Below, in pieces: positions 12,103 through 19,573 of a stretch of 64,000 bases of DNA; position 1 is the first letter of the stretch, and the number at the start of each line of letters is the position of its first letter. Origin of the DNA: Flavobacterium sp. N3904 (lineage in GTDB: Bacteria > Bacteroidota > Bacteroidia > Flavobacteriales > Flavobacteriaceae); assembly GCF_025947305.1 (NCBI RefSeq), contig NZ_CP110009.1, forward strand, positions 1,178,001 to 1,242,000, written 5' to 3'. The notes under the pieces were generated by a model. It had not been told where the DNA came from. It saw only the letters and a list, made by a program, of their open reading frames with translations, and ran no database searches. A program made the translations under genes and the position numbers.

Positions 12103-12125
12103 GAATTTATCTTTCTAAATATATA

Positions 12126-12156
12126 AGAGTTCCGCATTGCGGGACTCTTTTTTTTT
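12126..12156 (+). terminator. Rho-independent terminator of the atp operon
   Basis: A 10-bp stem (AGAGTTCCGC with GCGGGACTCT, one G-U pair) and 3-base loop run into nine T residues. It ends the transcript that includes atpG. Confidence 0.85.
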
Positions 12157-12186: not shown

Positions 12187-12624
12187 TTGGAAATAATAGA
12201 ACTCACTACCGCTCCAGAAATGCTCGCTCAAATTGAAGTGATGCGACACTTGTATCCCAACCTTACTCTGGAAAAATACGAATCTTATTTGCAGGAAATG
12301 GTTCCCCATAATTACAAACAGATAGCTGTTTTTGAAAACGGTAACTGCGTTGGTTTATCTGGTTTTTGGACAGCTATCAAGCTTTGGACAGGGAAATATA
12401 TTGAAATTGATAATTTCATAGTTCATTCGGAACACCGCTCTAAAGGGATTGGAAAAATGATGACCGATTATATAGATGTTAAAGCACAAGCTGAAGGTTG
12501 TACCGCCATTGTTTTGGATGCTTTCACGGGTAATTTTACTGCCCATCGTTTTTATTACAATCAAGGATATGTGCCAAAGGGGTTTCATTTTCTAAAAATG
12601 TTAAATGAAGAGGGATTAACTTAG
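12187..12624 (+). CDS. GNAT-family N-acetyltransferase
   Basis: The 145-residue protein has the GNAT fold. The acetyl-CoA loop motif is near residues 84-92 (HRSKGIGKMM, matching the Q/RxxGxG/A pattern), followed by the beta-bulge strand around CTAIVLDAF and the HRFYYNQGY terminal motif. The start is a TTG; no closer ATG preserves the first strand. It stands alone between the atp terminator and the next cluster. The acceptor substrate cannot be read from sequence. Confidence 0.85.
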   Translation: MEIIELTTAPEMLAQIEVMRHLYPNLTLEKYESYLQEMVPHNYKQIAVFENGNCVGLSGFWTAIKLWTGKYIEIDNFIVHSEHRSKGIGKMMTDYIDVKAQAEGCTAIVLDAFTGNFTAHRFYYNQGYVPKGFHFLKMLNEEGLT

Positions 12625-12751: not shown

Positions 12752-13426
12752 ATGGCAAAAGAAAGTTTTAATTGGAAAGGTCTTTTTATTAATGAAGAAA
12801 CTGAAGTACCAGTGGAAGTAAATAAATCCCAAGCTCCAATAAATCCCCCTACCAGTGAAATCACTAAATTTCCAAATCACGCCACTCAACCTATTTCCTC
12901 GGATTCTATTTCCAATCCTTTTTTAAAAGAAATATTTGAAGTTTATGATAAAGGCTTTGAGTCTTTGAATGCTTCTGGTTTTGATTTTTTTGAACTGTAT
13001 AAGTCTGTTGTGGCTGTTGGAATTACAAATCCTCAGAGTTATCAAATGGCTTTTACAATGGGAAAAACAATTCAACCAGATTTGACAAAACAATTTCTTC
13101 TTGAAAAAGCAAATTTTTATGTGACAGAGATTGAAAAAGTGTATGCTAAATATGATACTATTGGTAAAACTAAAAAATCAGATTTAGAGAATAATTTGAC
13201 CAAGGAGAAATACAATCTTTCCAAAAACATTGAAGAATTAAATACTAAGATACTTCAGCTTCAAAATGAATTGGAAACTAAGAAAGCAGAATTTCAAAAA
13301 ATGGATTCTAATAATATAGAGCAGTTTTCAGAAATTAGATTGAAAATGGAAGCAAACGATTTGGCCAAACATAAAATCTTAGATTCAATAAATACAGTAG
13401 TAACAGGAATTAATCAATATTTATAA
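12752..13426 (+). CDS. Uncharacterised soluble coiled-coil protein, first gene of the AAA/ABC/OmpA cluster
   Basis: The 224-residue product has no signal peptide or membrane segment. Residues 1-55 are proline- and serine-rich and probably disordered. Residues 60-110 look like a compact helical domain (FLKEIFEVYDKGFESLN onward), and about 135-205 form a heptad-patterned coiled coil rich in E, K, L and N. I do not recognise the family. The next gene starts three bases after its stop and encodes a membrane-anchored coiled-coil protein, so the two may bind each other. It opens a run of six same-strand genes ending in a CbbX-like AAA+ ATPase. Confidence 0.75.
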   Translation: MAKESFNWKGLFINEETEVPVEVNKSQAPINPPTSEITKFPNHATQPISSDSISNPFLKEIFEVYDKGFESLNASGFDFFELYKSVVAVGITNPQSYQMAFTMGKTIQPDLTKQFLLEKANFYVTEIEKVYAKYDTIGKTKKSDLENNLTKEKYNLSKNIEELNTKILQLQNELETKKAEFQKMDSNNIEQFSEIRLKMEANDLAKHKILDSINTVVTGINQYL

Positions 13427-13429
13427 TTA

Positions 13430-14551
13430 ATGGACAAATTCGAACAAGAAAAAAGCACACTATTATCACTTCCAATATTAAAACATTTTGACGAGTCAAA
13501 AGGTGAAATTGCTTTAAAATCAGGTGCTTTAAAGAAAGGCGAACAGACCTTATTTTGGGGTTTGGCATTGGGTTTATTGGGTATTGGAGGATATTTAACT
13601 TGGACATATATTATTCCACCACTTTTTACAATGTTGGGACAAGCGATTGCTTTATCGGCGACAGGTGTTTTTTTGGTTTTTTTAGTAATGATGTTCCCAG
13701 TTATTATGAAAGGATTAAGGTTTGCGACCAAGAATCTTCACAAAGCATTAATTCAAAGTAATCCTTTTAATGAATTGGAAGAGCAAAAACAAAAAATGAT
13801 AAAAAATCGTGAAGTTTTTAAGAACACCAAGGCTAAACTGAAAGGTCTTAAAAATGAAATGGAAATCGAAGCCAGTAAATCTGAAAAAGAAGCCAAATCA
13901 TTTCAAGAAGACGTTTTGAGTCTTAAACGCCAGTGTGAAAAATTAAAATCGGCAATGGATGAAATGGTTAGATTGAGTGGAGTTGGCGCTAAAGATACTG
14001 ATGAATATGTTGCTCTTCAAAGTGAATTGGCCCGAAAGCTAAGTGATTCTCAAAGGATTTCTACACAATATGAACAGAGCAAAAATTTTATTCAAAAATA
14101 TGGGGTTCGTGCCAATGTATTAGGTAAAATGGATAGAAAATTGACTTTGGCAGGAACAGCAATTGATATAAAAATTGCCGATTTTGATGCTACAGTTACA
14201 ATGCTTCAAAAAGAATATGAGTTTGCCAGAAATGCAAAAGAAGCAACGGAAAGTGCCAAAAGTGCGATGATGTTTACCAAAGATTGGGAATTGGAATATG
14301 CATTAGAGGTCGTAACATCTACAATAGCATTAGATATTGCCAGAACTTCTGAAAATTTGATTGATATTGATGCACTTACTTCTAAATATTCTGTAGATAA
14401 TGATGAGTTGTATTCCAGATTAGATTCATTGGCAGATGAAATTAAAACAGGAGACAACACTATTCCTGATTCAACGAAATATTCGAGTCCAAATTATAAA
14501 ATGACCAAAGAAGACAAAATGTCCAGTGGTGGTTTTGGAGATATTTTTTAA
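13430..14551 (+). CDS. Membrane-anchored coiled-coil protein of unknown function
   Basis: The 373-residue product has a 40-residue cytoplasmic lead, then two adjacent membrane helices (about 42-64 and 69-93). A long charged coiled-coil region follows (about 105-215), then further helices to residue 335 and a glycine-rich tail (SSGGFGDIF). The coiled coil and spacing superficially resemble PspA/toxic-anion-resistance-type helical proteins, but I see no diagnostic motif. It starts three bases after the previous coiled-coil gene and ends 25 bases before the SBP-OmpA gene. It would present a large helical domain to the cytoplasm, a plausible docking site for the cluster's AAA+ ATPase (inference). 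Confidence 0.75.
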   Translation: MDKFEQEKSTLLSLPILKHFDESKGEIALKSGALKKGEQTLFWGLALGLLGIGGYLTWTYIIPPLFTMLGQAIALSATGVFLVFLVMMFPVIMKGLRFATKNLHKALIQSNPFNELEEQKQKMIKNREVFKNTKAKLKGLKNEMEIEASKSEKEAKSFQEDVLSLKRQCEKLKSAMDEMVRLSGVGAKDTDEYVALQSELARKLSDSQRISTQYEQSKNFIQKYGVRANVLGKMDRKLTLAGTAIDIKIADFDATVTMLQKEYEFARNAKEATESAKSAMMFTKDWELEYALEVVTSTIALDIARTSENLIDIDALTSKYSVDNDELYSRLDSLADEIKTGDNTIPDSTKYSSPNYKMTKEDKMSSGGFGDIF

Positions 14552-14576
14552 TACATAATTTAATTTTAAAAATAAA

Positions 14577-16391
14577 ATGGGAAAAATTTTAAGAACGGAA
14601 AAGTTAACCACTTTTTCAGAATTATTGATTGTTATTGTGGCAATAGGAGGAATTTTAGGAGCAGTTTATTATATTTCTCCGGGAATCAAAACAGCTATTT
14701 CAAAACAATTAAATGGGATTGAATTAAATGGTACCGATGTAAATAATGTTACCAATGCTGAAAAAATTGAACTTCCGTCTACTGAAATATCTTCAGACGT
14801 AAGTAGTAAACCTTTAGTAAGAATTGCAGGATATGCATGGAATGCTCAGTCAGGAATTATAGTTTCTAATGGAGGACCAAAAACAACAAAAGGATCCTTG
14901 ATGGAAAAAAACGGAGTTAATCTTGAAATTATACGTCAAGACTGGCTTTCGGAATTACGTAACATGCAAATGAAATTTATCGAAGAATTTGATAAAGGAG
15001 AAGCTTTTCCTTCTTCAGATAAAAGCGTTTTTGCTGTTATGATTATGGGCGATGGAGCACCATTTTATATTAGCTCTGTTCAAAAATCATTAGACGAAAA
15101 ATACGGAAAAGATAAATATCACTTGCAGGTAATGGGTGTTGTGGGTATGAGTTATGGTGAAGATAAATTAATCGGACCACCAAGTTGGAAATCAGATCCA
15201 AAATCAATGAAAGGCGCTGTGATTTCAGCTGTTCTTGGAGATGGTGACTGGGTTACGACTGTAAATTATTGTTTTGCAAATGGATTGAAAGTAAATCCAG
15301 ATCCTACAACTTATGATGCGGATGCAGTAAATATTTATCCTTCAGAAAATGATGACTATATCAAATCAGCTGAAGAGTTAATCAAATCTCAAACAACAGG
15401 TTGGACTGTTACTTTGAAAGAAGTGGTAAACGGAAAATTAACAGGAAAATCAGTAAACAGAAAAATTGACGGTTGTGCGACTTGGACACCTGGAGATAAA
15501 ACGGTTTTTGATAAACTTTCCGGTTTTGTTGATATTGTTTCTACTAAAGAATTCAACAATCAAATGCCGACAGCACTTATTGGTGTGAAAGAATGGGCTG
15601 TTAAAAACCCTGATATTGTTTCAAATATTTTGAAATCGGCTTTGACAGCTTCTAATCAAATGAAAAATTATGAAGACTGGAAGGTAAGAGCATCTGAAGC
15701 AGTGGCTACTACTTACAATATGGAAACTCCTGAATATTGGTACAAAATGTTTAAAGGACAGCAAGCAACAAAAGGCGGATTGACTTATAATATGGGAGGA
15801 TCAAAAGTGTTCAATTATGCCGATGCGATGCAGTATTTTGGGATGTCAGATGGTGTAAACAGATACAAATCAGTGTACAATCAAGTTTCAGGATATTTAA
15901 CTGAATTGAATCCGTTTGGATTTAATGAAAATGTTGGAGCTGTAGTTCCTTATGATCAAGCAGTAAATTTATTCTTCCTTAAAAATATCAATGATATCGA
16001 ATCAACTTCTGCAGATAAAGCAGATTATACTACACAAGCGACTGAGGTTATGGCTTCCGGTGAATGGAAAATAAATTTTAGTTCAGGAAGTGCTACAGTT
16101 CAAAACAGTTCTAATAAAGATTTAGAAAAAATTTATAATCTTTTGATTCAAGCTGAGAATAGTAAATTAACGATTGTTGGACATACTGATAACGTTGGAA
16201 GTAGTCAAGCCAATTTAGCTTTATCAAAAAGCAGAGCACAAGCTGTTGTTGATTATTTGAAACAAAAAGGTATTCCAGAAAATCGTTTCCAATTAATTGA
16301 CGGTAAAGGTCAAAATGAACCAGTTGCTGATAATAATTCAGAATCTGGTAAATCTAAAAACCGTAGAGTTGTAATTACGTTCTTGAAATAA
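14577..16391 (+). CDS. Substrate-binding protein fused to an OmpA-type peptidoglycan-binding domain
   Basis: This 604-residue fusion has one N-terminal membrane helix (about 13-33). A type-2 periplasmic binding-protein domain of the nitrate/sulfonate/taurine kind (about 78-450) follows, then a C-terminal OmpA-like domain (about 490-604). The OmpA domain keeps the residues that grip peptidoglycan: D538 in GHTDNVGS and R596/R597 in the NRRV motif. The protein would be tethered to the inner membrane and to the cell wall, with the ligand-binding domain between. An ABC permease and ATPase follow after a terminator-like hairpin. I infer a wall-anchored receptor for that ABC pair; the ligand is unknown, and the binding domain may have become a sensor. 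Confidence 0.85.
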   Translation: MGKILRTEKLTTFSELLIVIVAIGGILGAVYYISPGIKTAISKQLNGIELNGTDVNNVTNAEKIELPSTEISSDVSSKPLVRIAGYAWNAQSGIIVSNGGPKTTKGSLMEKNGVNLEIIRQDWLSELRNMQMKFIEEFDKGEAFPSSDKSVFAVMIMGDGAPFYISSVQKSLDEKYGKDKYHLQVMGVVGMSYGEDKLIGPPSWKSDPKSMKGAVISAVLGDGDWVTTVNYCFANGLKVNPDPTTYDADAVNIYPSENDDYIKSAEELIKSQTTGWTVTLKEVVNGKLTGKSVNRKIDGCATWTPGDKTVFDKLSGFVDIVSTKEFNNQMPTALIGVKEWAVKNPDIVSNILKSALTASNQMKNYEDWKVRASEAVATTYNMETPEYWYKMFKGQQATKGGLTYNMGGSKVFNYADAMQYFGMSDGVNRYKSVYNQVSGYLTELNPFGFNENVGAVVPYDQAVNLFFLKNINDIESTSADKADYTTQATEVMASGEWKINFSSGSATVQNSSNKDLEKIYNLLIQAENSKLTIVGHTDNVGSSQANLALSKSRAQAVVDYLKQKGIPENRFQLIDGKGQNEPVADNNSESGKSKNRRVVITFLK

Positions 16392-16402
16392 ACATACATT
16401 TT

Positions 16403-16453
16403 AGCAAAGACACAGAGAATCCATTAGTGGATAGCTGTGTCTTTGCTTTTTTA
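16403..16453 (+). terminator. Strong hairpin terminator inside the six-gene cluster
   Basis: The arms AGCAAAGACACAG and CTGTGTCTTTGCT form a 13-bp stem around an inner mini-hairpin, followed by a T-run. It separates the binding-protein gene from the permease gene 10 bases further on. Partial read-through would give more receptor than transporter, a known feature of ABC operons. Confidence 0.8.
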
Positions 16454-16463
16454 AAATACTTTT

Positions 16464-17234
16464 ATGATAAAAATTTTTATCCCTTTTGAAAAATTATCTA
16501 AAACCAACAAAACATTAATTTTATTGGGTTGGTTGATTCTTTTGATTGTAATTTGGTTTATAGGTACTTCAGGGACAAAACATCTTTTTCCGTCCCCAAG
16601 TCAAGTTTTAACTGGATTTACAGATTTGTATAATGAAGGTTTGGTAGTGCATATTGCACATTCGTTGCAATTATGTTTCTTATCCATATTTTTGGCAACC
16701 ATAATCTCATTGATTTTTGCCTATTCTTGGCCGATTCCGCTTTTAAAATCAATTTCAGAATTTGTAACTAAATTTCGTTTTCTACCTTTTACCGGATTGT
16801 CGTTTTATATCACAATGGTAATTCACGAAGCGAGAACAATGCAAGTTTGGATTTTGGTAATATTTTTGACTACATTCTTGACAACTTCATTAATTGCGGT
16901 TATCAAAGACATTCCACAAGAAGAATTCGACCATGCCAAAACTTTAAAATGCAGTAGATTAGAAGTACTTTGGCAAGTTATTATTCTGGGAAGACTGGAT
17001 TATGTTATTGATGTAATTAGACAAAACCTAGCGATTACATGGATGATGCTAGTTACAGTAGAATCAATAGTTGTGGCTTCTGGGGGATTAGGATTTTTGA
17101 TAAAAAACTCAGACAAATTCATGAATACTGGCCGAATAATAGCACTTCAAATTATTATTTTGTTAATAGGATTGGGACTGGATGCTGGGATTAATTTTTT
17201 AAGGAAAACAATATTTAGATATTCAAAAATATAA
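16464..17234 (+). CDS. ABC transporter permease, nitrate/sulfonate/taurine type
   Basis: The 256-residue permease has six predicted membrane helices. The cytoplasmic EAA coupling loop is near residues 152-174 (EEFDHAKTLKCSRLEVLWQV). Size and loop match the SsuC/TauC/NrtB class of importers, which work as homodimers. It starts 10 bases after a terminator hairpin and five bases before the ATPase gene. Its partner receptor is presumably the SBP-OmpA fusion upstream. Confidence 0.88.
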   Translation: MIKIFIPFEKLSKTNKTLILLGWLILLIVIWFIGTSGTKHLFPSPSQVLTGFTDLYNEGLVVHIAHSLQLCFLSIFLATIISLIFAYSWPIPLLKSISEFVTKFRFLPFTGLSFYITMVIHEARTMQVWILVIFLTTFLTTSLIAVIKDIPQEEFDHAKTLKCSRLEVLWQVIILGRLDYVIDVIRQNLAITWMMLVTVESIVVASGGLGFLIKNSDKFMNTGRIIALQIIILLIGLGLDAGINFLRKTIFRYSKI

Positions 17235-17239
17235 GTTAT

Positions 17240-18070
17240 ATGAAACACGAATATAAAGAAACGCTTTTATATGTTGAAAATCTTAGTGTTGCCTATGATG
17301 ACACTGTTATTATAAAAGACATAAACCTTACTGAAAAGGATGTAATACGTGAAGGAGTTGATTGTACAGGGCAAGTCATAGCATTTGTGGGAAGATCAGG
17401 AAGAGGAAAATCTACTTTTTTCAAGGCGTTAACAGGATTGGTTCCTTGTACGGATGGAAAAATATTGATTCGCGACTTTGAAAATAAAGAACCAAATGCA
17501 GCCAAACTTGTTAAAGAAGGCGATATTGGTTTTGTAGATCAAAAATACACTTTGTTCAGACACAAAACGGTTCATCAAGCACTGAAGTTTTCATTAAGAA
17601 AAACGACTCTTTCGGATACTGAAAAAGAAAGTAAAATAAAAGAGTATGTAAAAGTATGGGGCTTAGAAAATTGTATTGATAAATATCCTAATGAACTTTC
17701 CGGAGGACAAAGACAAAGAACAGCAATTATAGAACAGTTGTTTTCTTCGGATAATTTTATTGTATTGGATGAACCTTTCTCTGGTTTGGATGTTGGGAAT
17801 ATTGAAGAAGTAAAAAAATCGTTTGCTTTACTTTGTAAAACTTCAGATTACAATACCGTTATATTTTCTACACATGATATTGAATTAGCTTTGGAATTGG
17901 CACAATCCATTTATGTAATTGGACATCCAACTATCAATGGAAAACAAGAAAAATATGGAACCATAGTTGCGAAGTATGACCTTAGAGACATTGGATTGGC
18001 TTGGACAGAATTTGGCGAAGGACATAGAAAATTGTGCAAAGAGATTGTGCATCAAATGATGATTTCATAA
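17240..18070 (+). CDS. ABC transporter ATP-binding protein, nitrate/sulfonate type
   Basis: The 276-residue ATPase has Walker A GRSGRGKS at residues 51-58 and signature LSGGQRQR from 153. Walker B acidic residues are D177/E178 and the H-loop is in STHD. About 45 extra residues at the C-terminus extend past the core (from about 232) and could be regulatory. The gene directly follows the permease gene, and the pair forms a complete importer engine with the SBP-OmpA protein. Confidence 0.93.
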   Translation: MKHEYKETLLYVENLSVAYDDTVIIKDINLTEKDVIREGVDCTGQVIAFVGRSGRGKSTFFKALTGLVPCTDGKILIRDFENKEPNAAKLVKEGDIGFVDQKYTLFRHKTVHQALKFSLRKTTLSDTEKESKIKEYVKVWGLENCIDKYPNELSGGQRQRTAIIEQLFSSDNFIVLDEPFSGLDVGNIEEVKKSFALLCKTSDYNTVIFSTHDIELALELAQSIYVIGHPTINGKQEKYGTIVAKYDLRDIGLAWTEFGEGHRKLCKEIVHQMMIS

Positions 18071-18142
18071 TAAAGTGTACTTTAAAAATGTAATTCATTC
18101 TGTTTCTATACTATTTTAGAACCAGAAATAAACATAAGAACA

Positions 18143-19573
18143 ATGGCTTTTACTGCTTCATTTATTCAAGAATTAAGAGAAGAAACTTCAAAAATCCTTG
18201 CCATTTGTGCTGAATTAAACAAAGAGGATTTATTTATTCAGAAAATAAATGAAGTGGTAATTTCAAACAATCAAAACGGACTGTTGCTAAAGGCAGAACA
18301 TTTTTTTCTATCAGACTGTATAGCAATGTACAATCTGTGTTTGGGGAAAGAAAATGATAAAGCCAGATTCACTTTAGCTTATTATTATGATGTTTTACGG
18401 AATTCCAGTTTTGCTGATGAAAAAGAAGTTATTAATTTAAACACTTTAGTTGTTACAGAAAACTTCAAAAAGCATATTTCAAAAATTAGAAATGACAACA
18501 GCTTACTTGGGTTAAAACCAAATGAGCAAAAATACTTTATTCCAGGTGTTTTATTGGAAATCAACGATCCTAAATACGAATGGATTTTAGATAAATATCA
18601 AAATTTTCTTCAGTATTCTTTTGATATTACTTTTAAGAATAGAAAGGATTTTGAAACATTTATTGGTTTTAAAGGGAAGGATAAAAAAAATGAAAATTCG
18701 GATCTCACCTCTATTTCGGAGAATGATTCTTTGGAAATTGTACTTCAGGAATTAGAACAATTAATAGGATTGGAGGAAGTAAAAAAAGATGTTTATGAAC
18801 TGATAAACCTTTTGGAAGTCCAAAAAAAACGTTCTTCTGAAGGATTAAAAAACATTGAGGTTACTTTACATACGGTTTTTTTGGGACCTCCGGGAACTGG
18901 AAAAACATCGGTTGCCAGACTTTTGAGCAGGATATTTAAACATTTAGGTTTTTTGTCAAAGGGTCAAATGTATGAAACAGACAGGGAAGGAATGGTTGCG
19001 GGCTATGTAGGACAAACGGCTCCAAAAGTAGACAAAGTCGTTGAAGAAAGTTTGGGAGGTGTATTGTTTATTGACGAGGCATATGCATTGACTCAAAATG
19101 CTTTGGGTAATGATTATGGTTCTGAAGCGGTTAATACTTTATTGAAAAGAATGGAAGATCATCGTGGCGATTTGGCAGTCGTTGTGGCTGGATATACGGA
19201 ACCAATGAAAGATTTTGTGGAATCAAATCCAGGATTGCGCTCTCGATTCAATCGCTTTTTTCGTTTTAATCATTTTTCTCCGGAACAATTATTTTTAATT
19301 TTTGAAAATTTTTGCAAAAGTTCTGATTTTATAATTGATTCGTATGCCAAAGAAAAACTAACAGATACTTTTGAATTGCTGTATTCAAAAAAGGATGAAA
19401 ATTTTGGGAATGCAAGAGTAGTTCGTAATTTATTTGAAAAATGCGTTCAAAATCAAGCTAATAGAATAGTAAATTTACCTTCACTTAATCAGGAAATATT
19501 AAAAACTTTCACCGAGGCAGATATTCCCGAACCTAAAGAAACCCAAAGACAAGTCAGTTTTTTTCAAGAATAG
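18143..19573 (+). CDS. CbbX/CfxQ-like AAA+ ATPase
   Basis: The 476-residue protein has an uncharacterised N-terminal half (1-205) and a CbbX-type AAA+ module (about 207-450). Walker A GPPGTGKT is at 248-255, Walker B VLFIDEA has D311/E312, and a pore-loop-like GMVAGYVGQT stretch lies between. The sensor and arginine-finger region follows (NPGLRSRFNRFFRF). CbbX proteins remodel other proteins; the classical one reactivates Rubisco, which is not expected in this organism. Its place at the end of the ABC/OmpA cluster suggests it remodels a cluster protein, perhaps one of the coiled-coil proteins. The N-terminal half may be the adaptor. Confidence 0.88.
   Translation: MAFTASFIQELREETSKILAICAELNKEDLFIQKINEVVISNNQNGLLLKAEHFFLSDCIAMYNLCLGKENDKARFTLAYYYDVLRNSSFADEKEVINLNTLVVTENFKKHISKIRNDNSLLGLKPNEQKYFIPGVLLEINDPKYEWILDKYQNFLQYSFDITFKNRKDFETFIGFKGKDKKNENSDLTSISENDSLEIVLQELEQLIGLEEVKKDVYELINLLEVQKKRSSEGLKNIEVTLHTVFLGPPGTGKTSVARLLSRIFKHLGFLSKGQMYETDREGMVAGYVGQTAPKVDKVVEESLGGVLFIDEAYALTQNALGNDYGSEAVNTLLKRMEDHRGDLAVVVAGYTEPMKDFVESNPGLRSRFNRFFRFNHFSPEQLFLIFENFCKSSDFIIDSYAKEKLTDTFELLYSKKDENFGNARVVRNLFEKCVQNQANRIVNLPSLNQEILKTFTEADIPEPKETQRQVSFFQE

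Follow-up and report, generated by a model that had tools for sequence, protein, structure and literature searches.

We analysed a 64,000-nucleotide stretch of Flavobacterium sp. N3904 (hereafter the window), which is part of a single 4.38-Mb contig and has Flavobacterium as its nearest named relatives. The window contains a cassette of six genes encoding two coiled-coil proteins (cc1 and cc2), a solute-binding protein (SBP) fused to an OmpA domain (SBP-OmpA), the permease and the ATPase of an ATP-binding cassette (ABC) importer, and an AAA+ ATPase (Table 1). An earlier note on this DNA had described six closely packed genes on one strand, and the list of open reading frames (ORFs) agreed, with six + strand ORFs separated by 3, 25, 72, 5 and 72 bases. 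The results showed that the first five genes are the conserved unit, to which the AAA+ gene is an addition mainly in Flavobacteriaceae, and that the five-gene core also occurs in records of huge phages.

Table 1. Features of the cassette and its surroundings, in window coordinates (TM, transmembrane).
Feature	Position	Strand	Description
cc1	12752..13426	+	224 aa; soluble helical/coiled-coil protein
cc2	13430..14551	+	373 aa; membrane-anchored; TM region, long helical hairpin, C-terminal GGFGDIF
SBP-OmpA	14577..16391	+	604 aa; TM anchor, then TauA/SsuA-related solute-binding region, then OmpA domain
Hairpin with T-run	16405..16452	+	Between SBP-OmpA and permease; read by eye from the sequence
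ABC importer permease, TauC/SsuC-like	16464..17234	+	256 aa; PF00528 at cut-off
ABC importer ATPase	17240..18070	+	276 aa; Walker A GRSGRGKS, LSGGQ, Walker B FIVLDEP
AAA+ ATPase, SpoVK/EccA/CbbX kind	18143..19573	+	476 aa; helical N-domain; accessory gene
Terminator-like hairpin	12125..12149	+	3' of atpG, left of the cassette site; terminator scan
GNAT gene	12187-12624		Flanks the cassette site; Pfam
Polysaccharide flippase	19640		Right flank; Pfam
atpG	11242		Left flank; ATP synthase genes recognised by reading the ORF list

We collected bacterial relatives of the SBP part by a non-exhaustive search for short peptide patterns in GTDB species genomes, keeping 80 of 90, and the same pattern scan of IMG/VR gave 52 viral loci. 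The bacterial loci were mostly from Flavobacterium, F. saccharophilum DSM 1811 (locus L023) among them, the rest from other Flavobacteriaceae, Chitinophagaceae and Saprospiraceae. Among loci with room on both sides, to which the core-gene tallies are confined, tblastn found all five core genes (cc1, cc2, SBP-OmpA, permease and ABC ATPase) in 63/69 bacterial and 41/42 viral loci, and among 132 loci compared, order and strand were the same in every five-gene locus (109/109). Where there was upstream room, cc1 was present in 65/75 loci from bacteria and 45/47 from viruses, and cc1 and cc2 were both retained in the same number of viral loci (45/47). The AAA+ gene was found in 50/80 bacterial loci (lying downstream in 39 of them and ahead of cc1 in the other 11) and in none of the 52 viral loci. 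The loci bearing it were mainly from Flavobacteriaceae, with a few labelled otherwise, namely Pedobacter (L030), Marivirga (L050) and two metagenome-assembled genomes (MAGs; L045 and L060). It was missing from the Chitinophagaceae and Saprospiraceae loci, as well as from 18 further viral loci and four bacterial loci of a second cassette type (subtype 2), both described below.

Within Flavobacterium, the SBP was detected in 18 of 199 genomes and the AAA+ N-domain in the identical 18, with at most 15 first-look candidates per genome scored for the N-domain. In a phylum sample of 395 genomes, 8 had the SBP, 7 had cc2 and 4 had the AAA+ N-domain, the latter two scans scoring only 5 and 7 first-look candidates per genome, respectively. 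One of the seven cc2 matches (G335, E 3.6e-4) had no other cassette genes beside it and looks spurious. The earlier note had taken the genes for one unit, with which the common order and strand and the 18 shared genomes agree. Its view of all six as that unit was rejected, since there are loci free of AAA+ (0/52 viral loci with it, none in Chitinophagaceae or Saprospiraceae) and nine genomes without a detectable cc2. Within the genus, one genomic site exists in two states, with and without the cassette: in 10 of 12 SBP-less genomes, atpG and/or the GNAT gene lay within about 0.6 kb of the flippase gene, and the GNAT gene was beside the flippase in 8 of these 12. Median ratios of nonsynonymous to synonymous substitution rates (dN/dS) per gene were 0.03-0.08 in bacteria (79-192 pairs) and 0.03-0.10 in phages (10-34 pairs), computed for window-type loci from pairs that are not independent, and the five-gene core is under purifying selection in the set tested. 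Three MAG contigs labelled Limnohabitans, Thermoanaerobaculia and Leptospirales (L045, L069 and L092) have SBPs that group among Bacteroidota rows and are perhaps mis-binned.

In GenBank phages, tblastn matched SBP-OmpA over its whole length with 63.6% identity in LR756500 (462 kb), and more weakly, over half of the protein, in LR756501, LR756503 (735 kb) and 12 Prevotella Lak records. In LR756500 all five stand in order, with identities to the window of 36, 51, 64, 52 and 57% from cc1 to the ATPase. The same gene order was found in LR756501 and Lak-B5, which are more divergent. Where one of their genes had diverged beyond the reach of tblastn with the window proteins, its assignment came from Pfam, from an alignment or from its position; the Lak-B5 cassette is interspersed with small extra ORFs. 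A second viral set, found with the Lak and LR756501 SBPs, comprised 18 loci on contigs of up to 512 kb, of which 13 had the five genes, in identical order in 13/13. Viral scans with the single Lak-B5 SBP and with cc2 gave two loci each, and one with the single LR756501 SBP gave none. AAA+ was not found by tblastn of the whole LR756500, LR756501 and Lak-B5 records.

The viral loci represent 9-kb (or 6-7-kb) surroundings rather than whole genomes, and they exceed the number of independent phages, as L111 equals L112, L123 equals L142, L199 equals L203, and the L137 SBP is that of LR756500. A terminase model matched 10 of 23 records, namely LR756500, LR756501, Lak-B5 and seven IMG/VR contigs of 206-369 kb. 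Support for a phage identity is good for the named records and the large contigs, and weaker for single short contigs. In an SBP tree, which left out rows shorter than 560 aa and two loci that gave no ORF, 49 of 51 viral rows formed one clade, with a Shimodaira-Hasegawa-like approximate likelihood-ratio test (SH-aLRT) value of 99, and the viral rows L099 and L104 were placed beside a Chitinophagaceae/Saprospiraceae group (support 83). Downstream of the phage-cassette ATPase, a protein cluster recurs in 32 loci (by single linkage, which may mix families), and one member (L107 12697-13605) matches the UVR motif over its cut-off.

The AlphaFold2 (AF2) model of cc1, with a mean predicted local distance difference test score (pLDDT) of 80.1, consists of a short N-terminal helix (WKGLFI), a disordered linker, a helical domain and a long terminal helix, and that of cc2 (mean pLDDT 69.9, higher in the hairpin) of a TM region and a long helical hairpin. 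Neither window protein matched a Pfam family over its cut-off, and window cc2 gave no match to PspA_IM30 (PF04012) at E<=1. When 53 cc2 members were compared with Pfam, 7 matched LMBR1 (best E 2.5e-5) and 5 matched UPF0242, and PspA_IM30 was not among the 25 best of 48 families. In 99 genomes of the class, PspA_IM30 matched a subtype-2 cc2 encoded beside an SBP-OmpA gene (G110; E 9.5e-8, 33.1 bits, cut-off 33.9), as well as another cc1-cc2 pair in G685. Four of five subtype-2-like cc2 proteins matched PspA_IM30 at 4e-8 to 5.5e-5 (29.5, 33.5, 30.9 and 23.3 bits, all below the 33.9 cut-off), and the fifth, L158, did not match.

Profile comparison by hhalign gave 97-98% between window-family cc2 and subtype 2, and 88-96% (E 3e-6 to 3e-9) between PspA and the cc2 of subtype 2 or of LR756501/Lak. 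Among the controls, 20 column-shuffled profiles scored at most 0.7%, and reversed profiles and atpF at most 6.6%; the alignments contained 64 of 110 cc1, 52 of 113 cc2 and 51 of 127 SBP locus proteins, each with the window protein added. Moreover, a Bacteroidota PspA model matched the phage cc2 of L205 (8e-5), L193, L190, L195, L194 and Lak-B5 (2.5e-3), and the cc2 of L013 within the same range, and a subtype-2 model matched window-type viral cc2 at 5e-7 to 9e-4. These profile matches place the cc2 of sister cassettes and that of Lak-type phages among the relatives of PspA, in the ESCRT-III superfamily, and they suggest an indirect link between window cc2 and PspA. On viral contig L116 (6977-10626), a window-type SBP-OmpA stands together with the other subtype's cc1/cc2 in a hybrid cassette, so that the two kinds of cc2 hold the same place. 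In structure comparisons (Foldseek and VIA on cc2, VIA on cc1), Vipp1 and CHMP4B rows appeared and were not distinct from the others, and when PDB was searched with profiles of cc2, of cc1 and of the window SBP, neither PspA nor Vipp1 was among the matches listed.

The OmpA domain of SBP-OmpA was recognised by Pfam (PF00691; 75 bits, cut-off 27.2) and carries the motif N-x2-LS-x2-RA-x2-V. An OmpA match at E<=0.1 was present in 52/52 SBP-OmpA members, D538 and R553 were invariant across 52 aligned rows, and residues 9-38 form a TM-like segment. The window SBP profile matched the Lak-type profile at 96.4% (E 1.1e-9, reported without a shuffled control), and the Lak-type profile in turn matched TauA (E 1.1e-12), SsuA (E 1.7e-12) and nitrate-type structures; NMT1_2 was over its cut-off in 2/2 phage SBPs. 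By this route through relatives only, the window SBP is distantly related to the TauA/SsuA type. The SBP part has a mean column identity of 78% over 14 bacterial and viral rows, and the window-type SBP has conserved stretches, among them MGDGAPFYIS, GDGDWV and WTPGDK, so that its ligand need not be a sulfonate. The permease matched BPD_transp_1 borderline (26.4 at a cut-off of 26.4), with TauC, SaoP and NtrB as best NCBIfam names, all below cut-off. The ATPase matched ABC_tran (87, cut-off 25) and contains Walker A, Walker B and ABC-signature motifs. The domains annotated in the earlier note were borne out by Pfam for OmpA, permease, ABC and AAA, and for the SBP half only through its relatives.

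A hairpin with a T-run in the gap between SBP-OmpA and permease, read by eye, also occurs in 6/6 other loci inspected in this way, with a different stem in 5. It may act as a partial terminator, so that more SBP than permease would be made. The window hairpin was absent from the terminator-scan list; that scan counted 3 terminators against a shuffled mean of 3.2, and promoter counts were likewise at chance level.

The window AAA+ protein matched AAA (64.2, cut-off 21.2) and AAA_lid_6 (67.4, cut-off 24.3) in Pfam and contains the motifs GPPGTGKT and FIDEA. The AAA match is limited to residues 245-375, and the N-domains of four relatives gave no AAA match at E<=0.1. A TerB-like N-domain was considered, with one sub-threshold match (E 0.058, L052) and none in three other N-domains. 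The protein had been called CbbX-like, an identity that we rejected, as it scored 214.7 with CbbX (TIGR02880) at a cut-off of 459.25; the best NCBIfam score was to SpoVK (TIGR02881; 251.1, cut-off 422.95, also unmet), and EccA (TIGR03922) scored 232.1 (cut-off 466.65).

Taken together, we consider that the cassette may encode an ABC importer tethered to peptidoglycan and built on a membrane scaffold resembling PspA, which in Flavobacteriaceae would be recycled by the SpoVK-like AAA+ protein, and we give this reading a probability slightly below one half (about 0.46). SBP-OmpA would be anchored at both ends, with its N-terminus in the inner membrane and its C-terminus in peptidoglycan, and would pass a small ligand, which might be an anion resembling a sulfonate, to the permease and ATPase. 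On the cytoplasmic face under the importer, cc2 would assemble with cc1, and the assembly would steady or shape the membrane there, much as PspA acts in envelope stress. In cassettes that include it, AAA+ would dismantle the cc1/cc2 polymer in the manner of Vps4 acting on ESCRT-III; since it is absent from many members, the scaffold must also work without it, and PMC11237479 names a comparable question for PspA as open. That the cc2 of sister cassettes is related to PspA lends some weight to the idea that AAA+ acts on a coiled-coil partner.

Several results weigh against this reading. PspA_IM30 matched nothing in the genome at E<=1, three of the four subtype-2-like matches came from a single genus, LR756501 and Lak-B5 cc2 did not match it at E<=0.05, and L116 cc2 matched it only at E 0.06. 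Aligned directly to PspA by hhalign, window-family cc2 reached 16.7% (7.5% with bacterial rows, 1.7% with viral rows), and cc1 gave 6%, with no PspA signal. With the TM part removed, the match of window-family cc2 to subtype 2 fell to 46% (E 2e-4), so the indirect link of window cc2 leans on the TM region, which PspA lacks. In the fold search with cc2, VIPP1 (7o3w) had a Z of 11.3, tied with unrelated coiled coils. The window SBP half alone matched no SBP family in Pfam and no solved SBP in the PDB profile search. The two halves of the cassette also occur apart. Ten bacterial loci with upstream room are without cc1/cc2, and nine Saprospiraceae/Neolewinella genomes keep the SBP, permease and ATPase; a cc2 search at E<=0.001 found none in 9/9 of these genomes and was positive in three Chitinophagaceae controls, the tenth locus (L069) lying outside the search. 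Conversely, G228 has a stand-alone cc2 (L160 9332-11061) without the importer, adjoining a 168-aa multi-TM protein, and viral contig L139 (8824-10638) has SBP-OmpA only, with no cc1, cc2, permease or ATPase in the available stretch. With regard to phage carriage, 13 of the 23 records had no terminase match, including L137, whose SBP is identical to that of LR756500, and the terminase model also matched 11 of 14 control bacterial genomes.

In the main reading, the five-gene version of huge phages would keep the envelope of the infected cell working during infection or alter it against other phages. Going further, we tentatively suggest that huge phages of Bacteroidota, in at least two sets, have as a long-retained and selected cassette their own PspA/ESCRT-III-type scaffold coupled to a peptidoglycan-tethered importer, and maintain or remodel the host envelope with it in infection, an idea that we regard as possible but somewhat doubtful. 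It would then serve against leakage, competing phages or defences that depolarise the membrane.

An ordinary TauABC/SsuABC-like nutrient importer, in which cc1 and cc2 only hold the complex together and with which phages feed their host a scarce sulfur- or nitrogen-containing anion, appears unlikely. It would account for the match of the Lak-type SBP profile to taurine, sulfonate and nitrate-type structures, the permease names TauC, SaoP and NtrB and the trio without cc2 in 9/9 Saprospiraceae/Neolewinella genomes, and an SBP excess would be suited by the SBP/permease hairpin. Yet, to our knowledge, an OmpA tether and a PspA-related partner do not belong to TauABC/SsuABC importers, and phages rarely dispense with cc1/cc2, which are present in 45/47 viral loci, with an other-subtype pair in L116. 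Less probable again is a force- or signal-transmitting ABC system, FtsEX- or Tol-Pal-like, that would sense a ligand or the wall and drive the coiled-coil scaffold, serving phages as a superinfection-exclusion or anti-abortive device. Its permease would be expected to differ from the BPD_transp_1 importer type found here, and in PADLOC the cassette yielded OmpA and ATPase matches and a weak one for cc2, with neighbours, outside the PADLOC run, that look housekeeping; what speaks for it is an SBP protein that looks anchored at both ends and is strongly conserved (78%) with stretches missing in the Lak-type SBP, together with presence or absence at one fixed site and carriage by phages. Chance adjacency of unrelated genes, which would fit the separate occurrence of the two halves, was rejected on the same order in 109/109 and 13/13 loci from several bacterial families and two phage sets, and on AAA+ and SBP in the identical 18/199 genomes.

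Read by eye in the ORF list, the genes around the cassette look housekeeping. A defence system was also considered, for which PADLOC returned matches to OmpA and the ATPase and a single weak one to cc2 (PDC-M13B, E 0.0022). Zorya was rejected as an identity: ZorB matches were confined to the OmpA part, and ZorA was listed by none of the six proteins at E<=0.01. By eye, the C-terminus of cc2 (GGFGDIF) resembles the N-terminus of cc1 (WKGLFI; GFKDLF in LR756500), and the two stretches are perhaps copies of one docking motif. Relatives of the 168-aa TM protein of G228 (best E 3e-20) were found in 11 marine-type loci (L049-L059), upstream of SBP-OmpA in ten.

The window holds a compact version of the cassette, and the same site with and without it within one genus makes its role testable. 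The huge-phage copies give the question of a PspA-like scaffold and importer an infection readout. If the phage reading is true, the phage cassette is a phage-encoded relative of the 'phage shock' response, and envelope upkeep joins the functions of huge phages.

The first author of the mSystems 2024 paper on such operons is presumably Ravi. The earlier note knew of no described system with this composition, and this has to be corrected, as one comparative-genomics paragraph of the covered text of PMC11237479 (mSystems 2024) describes operons of PspA/Snf7-TM, AAA+, ABC ATPase, permease and PBPB-OmpA and infers membrane remodelling tied to solute transport for them. The composition is thus already in print; experiments on such operons were not found in the literature covered, nor was huge-phage carriage of the five-gene core, which was unreported among the matches listed, the original Lak phage papers, supplements and most subscription journals lying outside the scope. 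The main text of PMC11237479, as covered, lacks 'virus' and 'bacteriophage' and has 'viral' twice; likewise, the covered main text of PMC7162821 has no 'transporter', 'ABC' or 'OmpA', and that of PMC7824862 no 'OmpA', 'permease' or 'transporter'. The composition of the window cassette appears to match that of the operons of PMC11237479, as far as covered, a fit that rests on the indirect PspA link; the example given there is OGG56892.1. In the covered passages the AAA+ protein has two AAA domains, the first inactive, whereas that of the window has one, after a helical domain free of AAA matches, and window cc1 is not recognisable as PspA. Phage carriage, the AAA+-free five-gene core and coupling within one genus are not in those passages of PMC11237479.

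The stretch over which PspA/IM30/Vipp1 (PF04012) can be aligned with the cc2 of subtype 2 and of the Lak type begins at about the DP motif, whereas cassette cc2 has a TM anchor, and the window copy is missed by the PspA model and linked indirectly by profiles. The likeness to TauABC/SsuABC lies in the SBP relation (via phage relatives), the permease type and the ATPase type, and the difference in an SBP with a TM anchor, an OmpA domain and extra conserved stretches, and in the scaffold genes. With SpoVK, EccA and CbbX the window AAA+ shares the AAA module and AAA_lid_6, but it falls below all three cut-offs and has a helical N-domain of its own. Finally, the cassette differs from Vps4/ESCRT-III in that its AAA+ comes from another family and is missing in many members, and resembles it in that the AAA+ gene adjoins a gene of a family seemingly related to ESCRT-III/PspA.

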